The notes beneath the pieces were generated by a model. It made no database searches. It was given only the letters and a program-made list of their open reading frames with translations, and had not been told where the DNA came from. A program made the position numbers and the translations under genes. A stretch of 49,778 nt of DNA, taken from NCBI GenBank assembly GCA_030694905.1, contig JAUYTY010000040.1:1-49778 (forward strand), written 5' to 3'. Shown here one piece after another: positions 579 to 42,062 of this stretch. The stretch comes from Eubacteriales bacterium. Lineage in GTDB: Bacteria > Bacillota > Clostridia > Tissierellales > Dethiosulfatibacteraceae. Position 1 is the stretch's first letter. Every line of letters begins with the position of its first letter.

Positions 579-1418
579 TTGCAGAAAACAAAAAAAATCA
601 ACAACTTCATATTTCTACTTATCGTTTTAGTCCTGATAATTACAATAGGGCTAAGTACTACACGCAATCAGCCGTCTCAAATGTCTGGGATGGTAGGTAG
701 CGTGTTTTCGCCTGTGCAAAAGGTTTTTTACTCTATCGGACAGACATTTGCCAATTCCTTTGATTCTTTGCTGAATATTTCCAGAATTCGCGAAGAGAAC
801 ATACAGCTGCAGGAGAGAATCAGCATACTTCAGGAAGAAAACATCCAGTTGAAATATATTGTCAATAACGCCGATGCCCTTAAGAATGAATATGAGATGC
901 TAAGCAACTTTCAATATGAGCATGTTAAAAGTCAGATCATATCAAGGGATATAGGCAATTGGTTTGAAAGATTTACAATCGATAAAGGAACCAATAGCGG
1001 CATCCAAATTGATGATATTGTCATTAAGGCAGTCAGGACGGAAGATCAACTGGTAAAAGTTGGTCTGATAGGCAAGGTGGTAGATGTTGGATACAATTGG
1101 TCCAAGGTTGTCACGATTGACGACATAGGAAGCAGTGTCAGCATCAAGGTGCTGAGGACCAACGAAGGTGGGGTTGCCAAGGGATCGATCAGTGGCAACA
1201 TAGAAGCCTTTATGTTTAGTCAGACAGAGGATCTAAGAGTGGATGACGAAATAGTGACATCAGGCTTGGGCGAGATTTATCTGCCCAATATTTATATAGG
1301 GAAAATAGTTAAGATTGAGAAAACCTCTGATCTGTTGACCGAAAAAATAACTATAATCCCTGTTGTGGATTTTGAAAAACTTTATGAAGTGTTTGTTATC
1401 AAGGTGGACAGAAGATGA
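579..1418 (+). CDS. mreC: Rod shape-determining protein MreC
   Basis: Bitopic scaffold protein of the elongasome that links MreB to PBP2. It has a short cytoplasmic tail, one membrane helix (FIFLLIVLVLIITIGLS), a coiled coil rich in REENIQLQERISILQEEN-type heptads, then the beta-rich MreC domain (ISRDIGNWFERFTIDKGTNSGI onward). At about 279 residues the length is typical. I chose the TTG at 579 because GGTGA at 569-573 sits 5 bases upstream. The in-frame GTG at 570 overlaps this ribosome binding site. The same RBS-to-TTG spacing recurs at 41379. The stop overlaps the mreD start (ATGA). Confidence 0.92.
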   Translation: MQKTKKINNFIFLLIVLVLIITIGLSTTRNQPSQMSGMVGSVFSPVQKVFYSIGQTFANSFDSLLNISRIREENIQLQERISILQEENIQLKYIVNNADALKNEYEMLSNFQYEHVKSQIISRDIGNWFERFTIDKGTNSGIQIDDIVIKAVRTEDQLVKVGLIGKVVDVGYNWSKVVTIDDIGSSVSIKVLRTNEGGVAKGSISGNIEAFMFSQTEDLRVDDEIVTSGLGEIYLPNIYIGKIVKIEKTSDLLTEKITIIPVVDFEKLYEVFVIKVDRR

Positions 1419-1906
1419 AAAAGTTTTTAGGCCTTGTCGGGTTGGTTATCATCAGTTTCATATTGCAATCCACAATTCTTCAATTTCTACGGATCTTAGG
1501 TGTTACAACAAACCTGGTACTGGTGGTTTTGGTGGTCATTTCCTTACAGACAGACGAAATAACCGGAGCAGGATTGGGTCTCATGGTTGGTTTTCTTACC
1601 GATATCCTATACGCGCAGTTTTTTGGTGTCAACACACTATTGTTTTTTTGCATAGGTTATTTGACTGGCAGGGCTTCTGAGGATGTTTACAAGTTTGATT
1701 TTTTTACAAATCTTTATTTTGTTCTTTTTGGAACATTATTCTATCATTTGTTTTTTTATTTTATCCATTATTTTCTGAAGATTGGCTCAGATGCCATATT
1801 GATTACGATTATGCCAATTTTGACAGAAATCGCTCTAAACCTTATCATTCTATACCCGATATTCAGACTCGAAAAAAGCATATTCAGAAAATTGAAAATC
1901 AATTAG
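1415..1906 (+). CDS. mreD: Rod shape-determining protein MreD
   Basis: Small integral membrane protein of the elongation complex, 163 residues, almost entirely hydrophobic, with about five membrane helices starting at FLGLVGLVIISFILQSTILQFL. The motif LVVLVVISLQTDEITGAGLGLMVGFLTD resembles the MreD/YrvJ-type core. It starts at an ATG overlapping the mreC stop, so translation is probably coupled. The 3' end lies only a few bases before the PBP2 ribosome binding site. Identification rests on position, size and hydrophobicity plus moderate motif similarity. Confidence 0.85.
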   Translation: MKKFLGLVGLVIISFILQSTILQFLRILGVTTNLVLVVLVVISLQTDEITGAGLGLMVGFLTDILYAQFFGVNTLLFFCIGYLTGRASEDVYKFDFFTNLYFVLFGTLFYHLFFYFIHYFLKIGSDAILITIMPILTEIALNLIILYPIFRLEKSIFRKLKIN

Positions 1907-1908
1907 AA

Positions 1909-1923
1909 GTGGTGATATAAATC
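1909..1923 (+). promoter_or_regulatory. Ribosome binding site and probable ATC start codon of the PBP2 gene
   Basis: GGTGA at 1911-1915 lies 5 bases before ATC at 1921, the same spacing as GGTGA to TTG in mreC (579) and in the response regulator at 41379. An in-frame TAA at 1918-1920 rules out any upstream start. Between it and the conserved N-terminal NRYNIL segment there is no ATG, GTG or TTG in frame. The ATC is therefore the best start candidate; ATA at 1930 is a poorer one. Confidence 0.6.
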
Positions 1924-4900
1924 GAATCCATAAGTCTTAAAAACAGATACAACATTCTTTTTCTTATTGTTATAGCCTTGTTTGCTGTTCTGGTCTTCAG
2001 ATTGGCGGTCATGACAATTGTTGAAGGCGATGAATACAGGGCGGAAGCAGATATAAAAACCATTAGGGACATCCCTATAAAAGCACCAAGAGGCAACATC
2101 TACGACAGAAATGGCGTTCTTTTGGCTGGAAACATTCCAAGCTTTACGGTGCAAATCAGAAAGGATGATATCAATACGGAGAACTTCGATGATACAGTCT
2201 TTTTACTTGCCAACATTCTTGACCGGAATAACGAGAGAATCATTGACGAATTTCCTATTGTCTTAAACAGGATCGGTTTTAAATCAGGACTGGATCAATC
2301 TGAATACTATTATATTGAGGAATTGGTCGAGGACTTGCTGATAGACAACCAGCTTGTCGCACAGCTATTTGAAATAGACAGCCAAATTGACTCGCTGATT
2401 GATATAAAAGAAAGAATACTCCTGATTTTACAGAATGAAGTGGCAGACATAGATGTTTTGTTTATCGACGGTCAGTATCAATTTGATGATGTTTCGCGCG
2501 AAGAGGCACCAGAGGTTTATTTGTCACAGATCATATATAATGACAGCAAACTGATTAAAAAACTATTGGCAAATTCAGAGCTGCGAAAGCATATTTTCGA
2601 TATTCTTAAAATGAATGAATTGGATGAGGGACTGCAATTTGTTCCCTATTCGTATACATATGACAATGATTATGAGCAGATTAAAAAGGATCTTGTTCCG
2701 GTGCTGGAAACGATAACTTTTGAGTCGGATGCCAAGTCAGACTTTTTGAATCTGGTAAGGCATTATTGCACAGATAGCTTCTATAGGTTGGTATTCAATG
2801 ACGGTGACAACAAAATCATGCCAGGTGTAATCCTTTATGACAGAATGATTATTGATTATCCGGATCTGCCTATCGATTATAGATTTGATGAAACCCAAAA
2901 TGTCATCTATTTCAATTTTACGAACGATGAAGATAAATTGGCTTTCATAAATCAACACAGCTATACTGAAGATGCATCCGCATACAGCATTCTATTGGAC
3001 CTGGCGATTAAGAGCAATGTAGATTTTGAAGTCATTCAGCTGGATGACGTAAAGTTTTACGCACAATCAAGATTATTGCCATACATCAATCCAATGATAT
3101 CTGTATCAGCTTGGGAATATACATCATTACTCAGAAAAAACAATTGGGTAAAGGCTAATCTGGGTAGCAGCGCAACCACGGATATGACAGCTGAAGCTGT
3201 TTTTGAAACCCTTAAAAAGAGAGCTAAGCTAGATGATGTCAATGACTATCTGGCAAGAAAGTTTTTTGTCATTAAAGAAAGATATGATAAACAAGGCTAT
3301 CTTGCTTTTCATCCCATAGATATGTGCTATGGCATCTCGGAGAAAACGGTAGCTTTACTCGCTGAGAATTCAGACAAGCTAAGGGGCGTTGAAGTTGTTG
3401 TGCAGCCTCTCAGATATTATCCCCAAAATGAATCTGCAGCCCATATTATTGGATACATGGGCAAGATTTCACAGGATTTTGAGATAGCCAAGTACATTCA
3501 AACTGAAGGGTATCTGCAAGATGATTTGATAGGTAAGACGGGGTTGGAAGAGAGTTTTGAGTTGCTGCTTAGTGGAACAAAAGGTAAAGAGACACTTAAG
3601 GTGGACGTATATGGAAACAGAATCAGCTCATTGGAGACAGCAGAACCCATACCTGGCAACAATCTATACTTGACAGTTGATATCGAGCTTCAGAAAAAGA
3701 CAGAAGCTTTGCTATCCTATACGATGGAAAAGATAAGAGTCGGAGGCGTTTACGAGAGCAAGTGGGGAGAGTACAAATTTGACAGGACATACAAAAATGC
3801 ATATTCTGGAGCTGTTGTCGCCATAGACGTGAAAACAGGCGAATTGATCGCAATGGTCAATGATCCGTCTTATGACCCCAATCTTTTCGCAACAGGAATA
3901 TCCCAGGAAGACTGGATAACACTGTCCAATGAATCAAAGGATTCCATGGCGCCAAGACCACTTTACAATATCTCTATGCTGACAGCCATACAACCGGGTT
4001 CCACATTCAAAATGGTTACCGCATTGGCAGCATTGGAAAAGGGAATTTCACCCTATGAAAGGATTTATTGCGCCGGTTACATGGAGATTGGAAATCAGGT
4101 TTTTGGATGTTGGATTTGGAATATGTACAAGTCAATTCATGGATATGAAAATATGTATGAGGCCATCAGAGACTCATGTAATTTCTACTTCTATACCTTG
4201 GTGCTGGGAGAAAACAGAGCAACAAACCAGAGAATATCCGCCAGAGTAGAATTGGATGATCTTTTGTCTATGGCAAAACAACTTGGTCTTGATGGTAAAA
4301 CAGGGATAGAGATACAGATACCTAATGAATTCTCTGGCGGTGTACCTAGTCCGGATACTAAAATCAGCTCCATCAGGTATTTTTTAAGAGAGTATTTGAA
4401 CCAAAATTTAGATAAATTCTATGCGGTGGGCAAGAACTACAACTCAGATGAGAAAGAGCAGATGATAAATACAATAGTCAGCTGGGTCAGAGGAGACGAG
4501 CCTTTGACACGTGGAGAGGTTTATGAAAATCTGACGGATATGGGTTTGAGACCCGATAAGGTAGATTCCAAGGGTATTCCATTAGTTGATATGATTAAGT
4601 ACAGTTTTCTAAATCAAGCCGTTTGGAATGATGGGGATAATGTTAACATCAGCATAGGTCAAGGCAGCAATGCCTACACGCCTTTGCAGATGGCAAACTA
4701 CGTAGCTACCATAGCCAACGGTGGATACCTTAGAAACATTAGTGTCATCAAGGAAGGCAAGACGTATGACAATGCTTCAGTTGTGTATGAACCGTTAAGA
4801 AGCGCAGAACGAATAGAGATCAGGGATTATTCCTATCTGGATGTACTCACGAGGGGAATGGAAATGGTATCTGCAGACAGCAAAGTATTCAATGATTTTC

Positions 4901-5133
4901 CTGTTAGAGTTGCTTCCAAAACCGGAACAGCTCAAAGAGAGGGCACAAACCCTGAAACAGGCGAACTCTATGATGACTTTTCATGGTATGTAGCTTACGC
5001 ACCCGCAGATGATCCACAGATAGCTATAGCGGTCGTTATATTTCAGGGTGGTTCGGGAAGATTCCCGGCACCGCTGGTCAGAGATATAATTGGAGAGTAT
5101 TTAAATCTTGAACCTGAAATAGCGGGAGAGTAG
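1921..5133 (+). CDS. mrdA: Penicillin-binding protein 2, class B transpeptidase (MrdA-like), unusually long
   Basis: Monofunctional D,D-transpeptidase that crosslinks peptidoglycan during cell elongation. From the ATC at 1921 it has about 1070 residues. It shows an N-terminal membrane anchor (LKNRYNILFLIVIALFAVLVFRL), the class B dimerisation motif APRGNIYDRNGVLLA, a very long intervening region of mixed helices, then the catalytic motifs STFK (S694), SCN (from S752) and KTGTA (from K1000). There is also an insertion of about 75 residues between SCN and KTG. Clostridial PBP2 proteins are often longer than the roughly 630 residues of E. coli, but this is near the upper end. A start at TTG 1978 would cut the membrane helix in half and has no RBS, so it is rejected. 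Its operon position after mreBCD supports the elongasome role. Confidence 0.9.
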   Translation: MESISLKNRYNILFLIVIALFAVLVFRLAVMTIVEGDEYRAEADIKTIRDIPIKAPRGNIYDRNGVLLAGNIPSFTVQIRKDDINTENFDDTVFLLANILDRNNERIIDEFPIVLNRIGFKSGLDQSEYYYIEELVEDLLIDNQLVAQLFEIDSQIDSLIDIKERILLILQNEVADIDVLFIDGQYQFDDVSREEAPEVYLSQIIYNDSKLIKKLLANSELRKHIFDILKMNELDEGLQFVPYSYTYDNDYEQIKKDLVPVLETITFESDAKSDFLNLVRHYCTDSFYRLVFNDGDNKIMPGVILYDRMIIDYPDLPIDYRFDETQNVIYFNFTNDEDKLAFINQHSYTEDASAYSILLDLAIKSNVDFEVIQLDDVKFYAQSRLLPYINPMISVSAWEYTSLLRKNNWVKANLGSSATTDMTAEAVFETLKKRAKLDDVNDYLARKFFVIKERYDKQGYLAFHPIDMCYGISEKTVALLAENSDKLRGVEVVVQPLRYYPQNESAAHIIGYMGKISQDFEIAKYIQTEGYLQDDLIGKTGLEESFELLLSGTKGKETLKVDVYGNRISSLETAEPIPGNNLYLTVDIELQKKTEALLSYTMEKIRVGGVYESKWGEYKFDRTYKNAYSGAVVAIDVKTGELIAMVNDPSYDPNLFATGISQEDWITLSNESKDSMAPRPLYNISMLTAIQPGSTFKMVTALAALEKGISPYERIYCAGYMEIGNQVFGCWIWNMYKSIHGYENMYEAIRDSCNFYFYTLVLGENRATNQRISARVELDDLLSMAKQLGLDGKTGIEIQIPNEFSGGVPSPDTKISSIRYFLREYLNQNLDKFYAVGKNYNSDEKEQMINTIVSWVRGDEPLTRGEVYENLTDMGLRPDKVDSKGIPLVDMIKYSFLNQAVWNDGDNVNISIGQGSNAYTPLQMANYVATIANGGYLRNISVIKEGKTYDNASVVYEPLRSAERIEIRDYSYLDVLTRGMEMVSADSKVFNDFPVRVASKTGTAQREGTNPETGELYDDFSWYVAYAPADDPQIAIAVVIFQGGSGRFPAPLVRDIIGEYLNLEPEIAGE

Positions 5134-38949: not shown

Positions 38950-38964
38950 GGAGGTGACGTCATC
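38950..38964 (+). promoter_or_regulatory. Ribosome binding site and probable ATC start codon of the EamA gene
   Basis: GGAGGTGA at 38950-38957 is a full-strength Shine-Dalgarno sequence 4 bases before ATC 38962. No ATG, GTG or TTG in the frame lies between it and the first membrane helix. The first TTG (38995) is 37 bases away and inside the helix. Confidence 0.65.
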
Positions 38965-39870
38965 AAAAGGAATCAAAAAACAATTGCCCTTATATTGCTG
39001 ATTATTTCTGCAATAATGTGGGGTATCTCATTTATCAGCATCAAAATAGCAATGACCGTATTTCCACCGATGAGCCTGGCATTTTACAGGTTTCTTCTGG
39101 CATCCATCATACTATATCCAATAATGAAGAAAATTGACAAAAAAGAAGCATTGAGAAAAAAAGACATTCCTCTAGTAGCCTTAGCGGGGATATTGGGTAT
39201 TACCGTGTACTTTTTCTTTGAGAACAATGGACTTTTGCGAATAAGTGCCAATGACGCATCCATCATCATAGCTATGCTTCCCGTAGGGGCTGCCATATGC
39301 GAAAGGGTCTTTCTCAAAAAGAAACTGAAGCTGATATCATTGGCTGCTATCATCGCTTCAGTTTTTGGAATCTATATGGTGATTGGCGGTGAATTGAGAG
39401 GAGGTAATCCATCGGGTTATTGGTACATGCTTGGGGCCATTATATCTTACTCGATTTATCTGATACTGACCAAACCCCTTTTTGATAGATATTCAGATAT
39501 TACAGTTGCATTCTACCAAAGCTTGTTTGGATGTGTTGCATTTATACCGTTTCTCTTTTTTGAAACGGTGCGTTGGGATCTTTTAAACACAACTATTACA
39601 CTGAATTTCTTCTTTCTTGCTGTTTTGTGCTCGGCAGTGGCAAGCTATTTCTATATGTACGCACTAAACCATCTAGGTGTTTCCATAGCAGCGGTATTTA
39701 TGAATCTTATTCCGGTTGTTACTTTTATTGCGAGCTTTATTATCTTTGGTCAAACCATGACTTTTATTCAAATCATTGGTGCGGTGGTTGTCATTGGAGC
39801 CGTTACAGTTGTGACCAGACAGCATGAAACTTTCGTAATTATTCCAGAAAATCAATTATCAGATTCATAA
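38962..39870 (+). CDS. EamA/DMT family transporter
   Basis: Ten-helix drug/metabolite transporter of 302 residues, made of two EamA repeats. The first begins IALILLIISAIMWGISFISIKIAM and the second YWYMLGAIISYSIYLILTKPLF. The family motif FxNNGLLRISANDASII is visible. The chosen ATC start gives IKRNQKTIALILL, with a positively charged cytoplasmic N-terminus as in homologues. The TTG at 38995 would truncate helix 1 and lacks an RBS. Substrate unknown. The 3' end overlaps the convergent hydrolase gene by 32 bases. Confidence 0.9.
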   Translation: MKRNQKTIALILLIISAIMWGISFISIKIAMTVFPPMSLAFYRFLLASIILYPIMKKIDKKEALRKKDIPLVALAGILGITVYFFFENNGLLRISANDASIIIAMLPVGAAICERVFLKKKLKLISLAAIIASVFGIYMVIGGELRGGNPSGYWYMLGAIISYSIYLILTKPLFDRYSDITVAFYQSLFGCVAFIPFLFFETVRWDLLNTTITLNFFFLAVLCSAVASYFYMYALNHLGVSIAAVFMNLIPVVTFIASFIIFGQTMTFIQIIGAVVVIGAVTVVTRQHETFVIIPENQLSDS

Positions 39871-41378: not shown

Positions 41379-42062
41379 TTGAAATATAATGTTTTAATAG
41401 TCGAAGACCAACCGGAGATCAGCGGCATTGTCACGAAATATCTAGACAGCGATGGATTCAATACTTATATTGCAAAGGATGGCTTTGAGGCATTGAGTTT
41501 TTTCAATAGCTTAACAATACATCTTATGATATTGGATATTATGCTGCCGGGTATTGACGGGTATGATGTATTGCGGGAGGTTCGCAAAATATCTGAGATT
41601 CCTGTCATCATGCTGACAGCCAAACAAGACGAAGCTGACAGGTTAAAAGGGTTTGACACCGGAGCCGATGACTACGTTGTTAAGCCGTTTAGCGTCAAAG
41701 AGCTGGTTAAGCGGGTACAAGTATTGATCAACAGAGTATATCATGACAACGAAGAAATAATTTATACCTGTGGGGATTTAAAACTATACACACAGAGCAT
41801 GAAGCTATATCGCAATGATGTTGAAATATCACTGACATCCGCGGAGTATAGCCTCATGCTTGTTATGTTTAAGAGTCAGGGACAGGTCTTAAATAGAGAA
41901 CAACTGATTGAGCTTGCCTTCGGAAACTCATACGAAGGATATGATCGGAACGTGGATAGTTATATAAAGAGAATCAGACAAAAAATTGAGTCGGACTCCA
42001 GACATCCCCAATATTTGATAACCAAGTACGGCGCAGGTTATATATTCGGAGGTGAGCAATAA
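41379..42062 (+). CDS. Response regulator, OmpR/PhoB family
   Basis: Regulator of 227 residues. The receiver has IVEDQPE, phospho-acceptor D53 (LMILDIMLPGIDGYD) and KPFSV. The winged-helix domain ends with YDRNVDSYIKRIRQKIE and ITKYGAGYIFG. I start at TTG 41379, as GGTGA at 41369-41373 is 5 bases upstream; the GTG at 41370 overlaps that RBS. The stop overlaps the kinase ATG. A -10-like TATAAT is at 41355-41360. Confidence 0.92.
   Translation: MKYNVLIVEDQPEISGIVTKYLDSDGFNTYIAKDGFEALSFFNSLTIHLMILDIMLPGIDGYDVLREVRKISEIPVIMLTAKQDEADRLKGFDTGADDYVVKPFSVKELVKRVQVLINRVYHDNEEIIYTCGDLKLYTQSMKLYRNDVEISLTSAEYSLMLVMFKSQGQVLNREQLIELAFGNSYEGYDRNVDSYIKRIRQKIESDSRHPQYLITKYGAGYIFGGEQ

Follow-up and report, generated by a model that had tools for sequence, protein, structure and literature searches.

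A probable AUC initiation codon for the PBP2 gene mrdA, with candidate near-cognate starts elsewhere in its order

The mrdA gene of this member of the Tissierellales, encoding penicillin-binding protein 2 (PBP2), is very probably translated from an AUC codon at position 1921 of the window, by which we mean the whole 49,778-nucleotide stretch analyzed here (contig C159 of a 2.8-Mb, 221-contig assembly). This start, as originally predicted, is the best reading of the locus, and Shine-Dalgarno (SD) placement, conservation, and coding constraint agree on it. The near-cognate start does not appear to be a lone oddity, because AUA, AUC, or AUU stands there in five of the seven family genomes that cover the position and other genes of the same genome seem to be alike. 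Throughout, AUH (ATH in DNA) stands for ATA, ATC, or ATT, canonical starts are ATG, GTG, and TTG, G000 is the window genome, and G001 (record LGGM01000005.1) is the closest relative compared.

The mrdA locus and its start region

The assignment of the gene product is based on a TIGR03423 score of 465.8 bits (cut-off, 455) and on the presence of the transpeptidase and dimerization domains (PF00905 and PF03717), with mreC and mreD lying upstream and both scoring over their NCBIfam cut-offs. The window opens with an open-ended gene at 2-562 that, from its position, is presumably mreB. The features of the locus are as follows.

579..1418, plus strand: mreC, with a TTG start at 579; comparison gene with an identical 5-nt gap after GGTGA
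1415..1906, plus strand: mreD, over the TIGR03426 cut-off; its stop codon, TAG at 1904-1906, lies 14 nt ahead of the ATC
1911..1916, plus strand: SD site GGTGAT, read directly; duplex of -10.6 kcal/mol for the ATC start
1918..1920, plus strand: in-frame TAA, excluding GTG1909 and GTG1912; the same TAA is present in G001
1921..1923, plus strand: ATC, proposed mrdA initiation codon, 5-nt gap from GGTGA; ATA, ATC, ATT, or ATG aligned in relatives
1921..5133, plus strand: mrdA, penicillin-binding protein 2, 1070 aa (TIGR03423, PF00905, PF03717)
1978..1980, plus strand: TTG, earliest canonical in-frame codon, rejected as the start; without an SD, and codons 2-19 are constrained

The PBP2 is unusual in its length, as the best-matching stretch of the PBP2 model begins only at residue 441, which suggests a large insertion following the N-terminal part. 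Many mrdA relatives in the order are likewise long.

Direct reading of the start region bore out the anatomy that had been described for it. The in-frame TAA at 1918-1920 blocks any upstream start, the frame is open from 1921 to 5133, and no ATG, GTG, or TTG occurs in frame before TTG1978. GGTGA at 1911-1915 lies five bases ahead of ATC1921, and the same gap separates GGTGA from the TTG starts of mreC (579) and the gene at 41379. This is ordinary spacing for the genome, in whose sampled stretches gaps to the first ATG are mostly 1 to 6 nt with a mode of 4. The mreD stop lies 13 to 18 nt from the mrdA start across seven family genomes. When 70 nt around the start were folded, energies ranged from -2.2 to -9.1 kcal/mol across the seven genomes, among which no shared fold was seen by eye.

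Conservation of the start position

G001 represents a second species in a separate assembly, and its mrdA product is 88% identical to that of the window. The original prediction would have been overturned by an orthologue with the same upstream DNA and an ATG elsewhere; instead, the 14-base leader between mreD and mrdA, TAA included, is identical in G001, and ATA replaces ATC. Between the two species, codons 2 to 19 comprise nine unchanged, seven synonymous, and two replacement codons, and third positions hold 9 of the 11 base changes. Because these codons evolve as coding sequence, translation begins ahead of TTG1978, in line with the claim that the N-terminus is encoded before that codon.

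This pattern bears directly on whether TTG1978 (codon 20) might instead be the start, which would shorten the membrane anchor of PBP2. TTG1978 is the earliest canonical codon in frame, and in two relatives (G003 and G004) that codon is ATG. Against such a start, its computed pairing with the 16S tail is -0.5 kcal/mol compared with -10.6 kcal/mol for ATC1921 (energies for the standard tail, which may differ from the tail of the window genome), it would leave the SD at 1911-1916 without a start, and ATG is found at the ATC position in G005 and two codons farther downstream in G002. Together with the coding behavior of codons 2 to 19, these points leave the TTG1978 start with a very small chance of being correct. 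Sequencing or assembly error, with a true sequence that contains a canonical start or no TAA, might be suspected in an assembly of 221 contigs, but is very unlikely because a second species, assembled separately, has the same leader and TAA; the record of Dethiosulfatibacter aminovorans DSM 17477, with a start sequence as in G003, also has ATA at the aligned mrdA codon. It is scarcely credible that translation starts at GTG1909 or GTG1912 and passes the TAA by stop readthrough or frameshifting, for although the two GTG codons are close and in frame, and an in-frame GTG without a stop is found in G003, G004, and G007, the GTG belongs to the SD and a 5-base gap puts it in frame as a matter of arithmetic, the two codons lack an SD of their own (-1.8 and -2.5 kcal/mol), two species retain the TAA, and in G005 a TAG occupies the same place ahead of its ATG.

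Initiation at AUC1921 is also consistent with the codons found at this position in relatives. The mrdA start was covered in seven of eight family genomes sampled, and the aligned codon is ATC in G000 and G004, ATA in G001 and G003, ATT in G007, and ATG in G005, with the ATG of G002 displaced as described above. Across the order, the N-terminus was matched in 204 of 249 genomes, from which we read a part, nearest matches first, amounting to 124 loci with 118 distinct start contexts; six loci without an alignment at the settings used were left out, and for four loci (L096 and L110 to L112) that were listed as lacking a canonical start, an ATG lies close to the edge of the retained stretch. In eight of the 118 contexts no canonical start is placed behind an SD, and every one of these has AUA, AUC, or AUU there (G000, G001, G003, G004, and G007; G017 in a second family; and G185 and G207 in a third). 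ATH makes up approximately 10% of noncanonical codons in the three genomes sampled. In the six contexts with an in-frame canonical codon, the best SD energy of such a codon is -0.8 to -3.4 kcal/mol, compared with -9.7 to -18.3 kcal/mol for the best-scoring ATH codon, which in G003 and G185 differs from the codon at the 5-base gap (ATA and ATT, respectively). Outside the order, matches in 41 of 291 genomes (some of them in the order) gave 30 loci, of which 29 aligned and 22, which may include class B PBPs other than mrdA, lay outside it; one of these 22 (L291) has ATA placed alike and a GTG inside its SD, and at the other flagged locus (L289) an ATG lies upstream.

The same geometry may conceal such starts from annotation. 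With five bases between GGTGA and the start codon, the GTG inside the SD shares the reading frame of the gene, and in six of the eight contexts (G003, G004, G007, G017, G185, and G207) it is formally open as a start codon. A gene caller restricted to ATG, GTG, and TTG would probably take it. These six contexts are weaker evidence for an AUH start, since purifying selection on isoleucine would likewise keep ATH codons. Only G000 and G001 among the eight have a stop between the SD and the start, and it is because two species carry this stop that comparison within the family exposed the mrdA case. Wherever GGTGA sits five bases upstream, near-cognate starts could be mistaken for GTG starts, which constitutes a blind spot.

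Other candidate near-cognate starts and their background rate

Near-cognate starts seem to recur in lgt, a TetR-like gene, an EamA-family transporter gene, and infC. The transporter gene supplies a second proposed ATC start within the window.

38950..38957, plus strand: SD GGAGGTGA, ahead of the second proposed ATC start
38962..39870, plus strand: EamA-family transporter gene with a proposed ATC start, arranged as GGAGGTGA-CGTC-ATC38962 with a four-base gap

No ATG, GTG, or TTG occurs in this gene from the upstream stop to TTG38995. It is without close orthologues (the best has 38% identity and an ATG one codon later), and its ATC start is proposed from the anatomy of the gene itself. For lgt (L156, 8067-8795, minus strand; L174 and L175), the codon behind GGAGGTGATT is ATT in G000 and G001 and ATA in G003, and an ATG lies at or just before the aligned codon in G002, G004, and G005; an in-frame GTG is open inside the SD. 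The TetR-like gene (L154, 11785-12429, minus strand; L181 to L185), whose similarity to RefZ is weak and below the cut-off, has ATC in G000, G001, and G006, ATA in G002, and an aligned ATG in G003 and G007. An open in-frame GTG is found inside its SD in G000, G001, and G006; in G002 there is no GTG in the SD and a TTG lies ten codons upstream. A leuC/hacA-family gene of G003 (L222, 18386-19591, minus strand) has an apparent ATT start and an in-frame TTG inside the SD. Five of six infC loci have ATT, and in G000 and G001 an ATG lies just before the SD of infC.

The background rate of ATH codons behind SD sites was estimated by scanning 471 kb of G000 (405 open reading frames [ORFs] scored), 400 kb of G003 (361 ORFs), and 400 kb of G012, a comparison genome from another family (346 ORFs). 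Among SD matches of 7 nt or more without a nearby canonical start, ATH accounted for nine sites and all other codons for six in the three genomes (3 versus 2 in G000, 3 versus 0 in G003, and 3 versus 4 in G012). Against the approximately 10% expected, this gives a binomial P of approximately 3e-6 (p = 0.1, assuming independent sites). Of the nine ATH sites, infC supplies two and mrdA of G003 another. With matches of 6 nt or more, the only level at which the window mrdA is counted, the excess is much weaker (16 ATH versus 51 other), and several of the ATH sites are apparent chance sites within genes. Since G012 shows such sites too, the AUH habit would not be private to the family.

Two energy-based screens of 229 ORFs are less clear-cut than the SD-match count. 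The first returned four near-cognate cases, one of them chance-like, versus two for six control codons, and did not flag mrdA, which was probably missed owing to a chance SD before ATG2011. The second returned 33 hits at the codon level, counting those that overlap; seven of the 33 were ATH (four ATC, two ATA, and one ATT), but AAT also had four hits. Taken across the order, it is a tentative proposal, with somewhat less than an even chance, that AUA, AUC, and AUU are regular minor starts (in very roughly 1% of genes) that are found on core envelope genes, mrdA and lgt among them, and are largely hidden by an in-frame GTG or TTG in the SD. If AUH starts are indeed used order-wide, PBP2 supply, and hence cell elongation, would be tied to the initiation machinery.

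Possible mechanism and known near-cognate starts

Initiation at AUC1921 would proceed by ordinary SD-guided entry of the 30S subunit. GGTGAT would place AUC in the P site, where the initiator tRNA would pair with A and U and mismatch at the third base, and decoding of AUC in this manner would be expected to have a low yield. Ribosomes terminating on mreD 14 nt upstream may help. The level of IF3 would be predicted to modulate initiation at AUC, so that PBP2 synthesis would be limited at this step. In a search for an altered initiator tRNA, a tRNA-Met with a CAU anticodon loop flanked by GGG/CCC was found in three family genomes (G001, G005, and G007) and in G012. No initiator tRNA was found by pattern and DNA query in the assemblies of G000, G002, G003, and G004, or by DNA query in that of G006; pattern hits in G000 and G003 were not tRNAs, and G003 gave a weak partial match (78% over 51 bases).

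Low, IF3-limited expression of PBP2 is plausible by analogy with characterized systems. Starting at AUC could carry a cost for a gene that the cell needs, since codons with weak third-base pairs, which IF3 disfavors, yielded hardly any full-length product in an in vitro study using E. coli components (PMC10158994). Alternatively, AUC may be the start but a near-neutral product of drift, tolerated through the SD and coupling to mreD and without any regulatory role. This alternative competes with the IF3-control step only and leaves the AUC start unaffected, and we give it close to an even chance. Family members exchange AUH for AUG and the reverse, and several unrelated genes appear alike, as drift would have it; on the other side, G000 and G001 have both retained a codon other than AUG in all three of mrdA, lgt, and the TetR-like gene, although shared ancestry explains each instance. 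Neutral drift and a regulatory role are about as likely as each other. Conservation of such a start on the chief transpeptidase of elongation suggests that translation initiation could set a limit on growth of the cell wall.

To our knowledge, few bacterial genes starting at AUC, AUA, or AUU are known. Among the open-access titles and abstract openings listed, no near-cognate start on mrdA was reported. AUU, AUA, and AUC starts as such are already known, and to them mrdA adds a cell-shape gene whose near-cognate start is conserved. What seems more novel is that AUH starts recur on several core genes in the order, often masked by an in-frame GTG of the SD.

The infC and mrdA genes are alike in having a near-cognate AUH start, a type discriminated against by IF3 (PMC5472188, PMC13009471). 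They differ in that infC encodes IF3 and regulates itself, whereas mrdA encodes a cell-wall enzyme, and we know of no feedback of the infC kind for mrdA. The infC start is AUU in E. coli, ATC in Streptomyces, and AUA in S. aureus. A start-switch reconstruction recovered AUG-to-AUU once among 61,358 ancestral AUG starts (PMC5622118). In S. aureus, AUA starts are described for infC, ccpN, and citZ and an AUU start for cvfC1, expression in poor medium being approximately 10% of that from AUG and, for the AUA of ccpN, up to 30% in rich medium (PMC13009471). Like mrdA, ccpN and cvfC1 have conserved AUH starts with an extended SD in a Firmicute; they are, however, other genes, and their starts were demonstrated by ribosome profiling and reporters, whereas that of mrdA is read from sequence (PMC13009471). 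Listeria monocytogenes has six fixed noncanonical starts among 2265 conserved genes, with the ATT of infC and the ATC of rnhC experimentally confirmed, and these resemble mrdA in being fixed noncanonical starts with ATC among them; mrdA is not named in the portion of that account available (PMC13068326). The sigR gene of Streptomyces resembles the proposed mrdA case in that a noncanonical start limits translation through IF3, its GTC start rendering translation IF3 repressed, but the codon is GTC rather than ATH and its role is in the balance of sigma and anti-sigma factors (PMC5472188).
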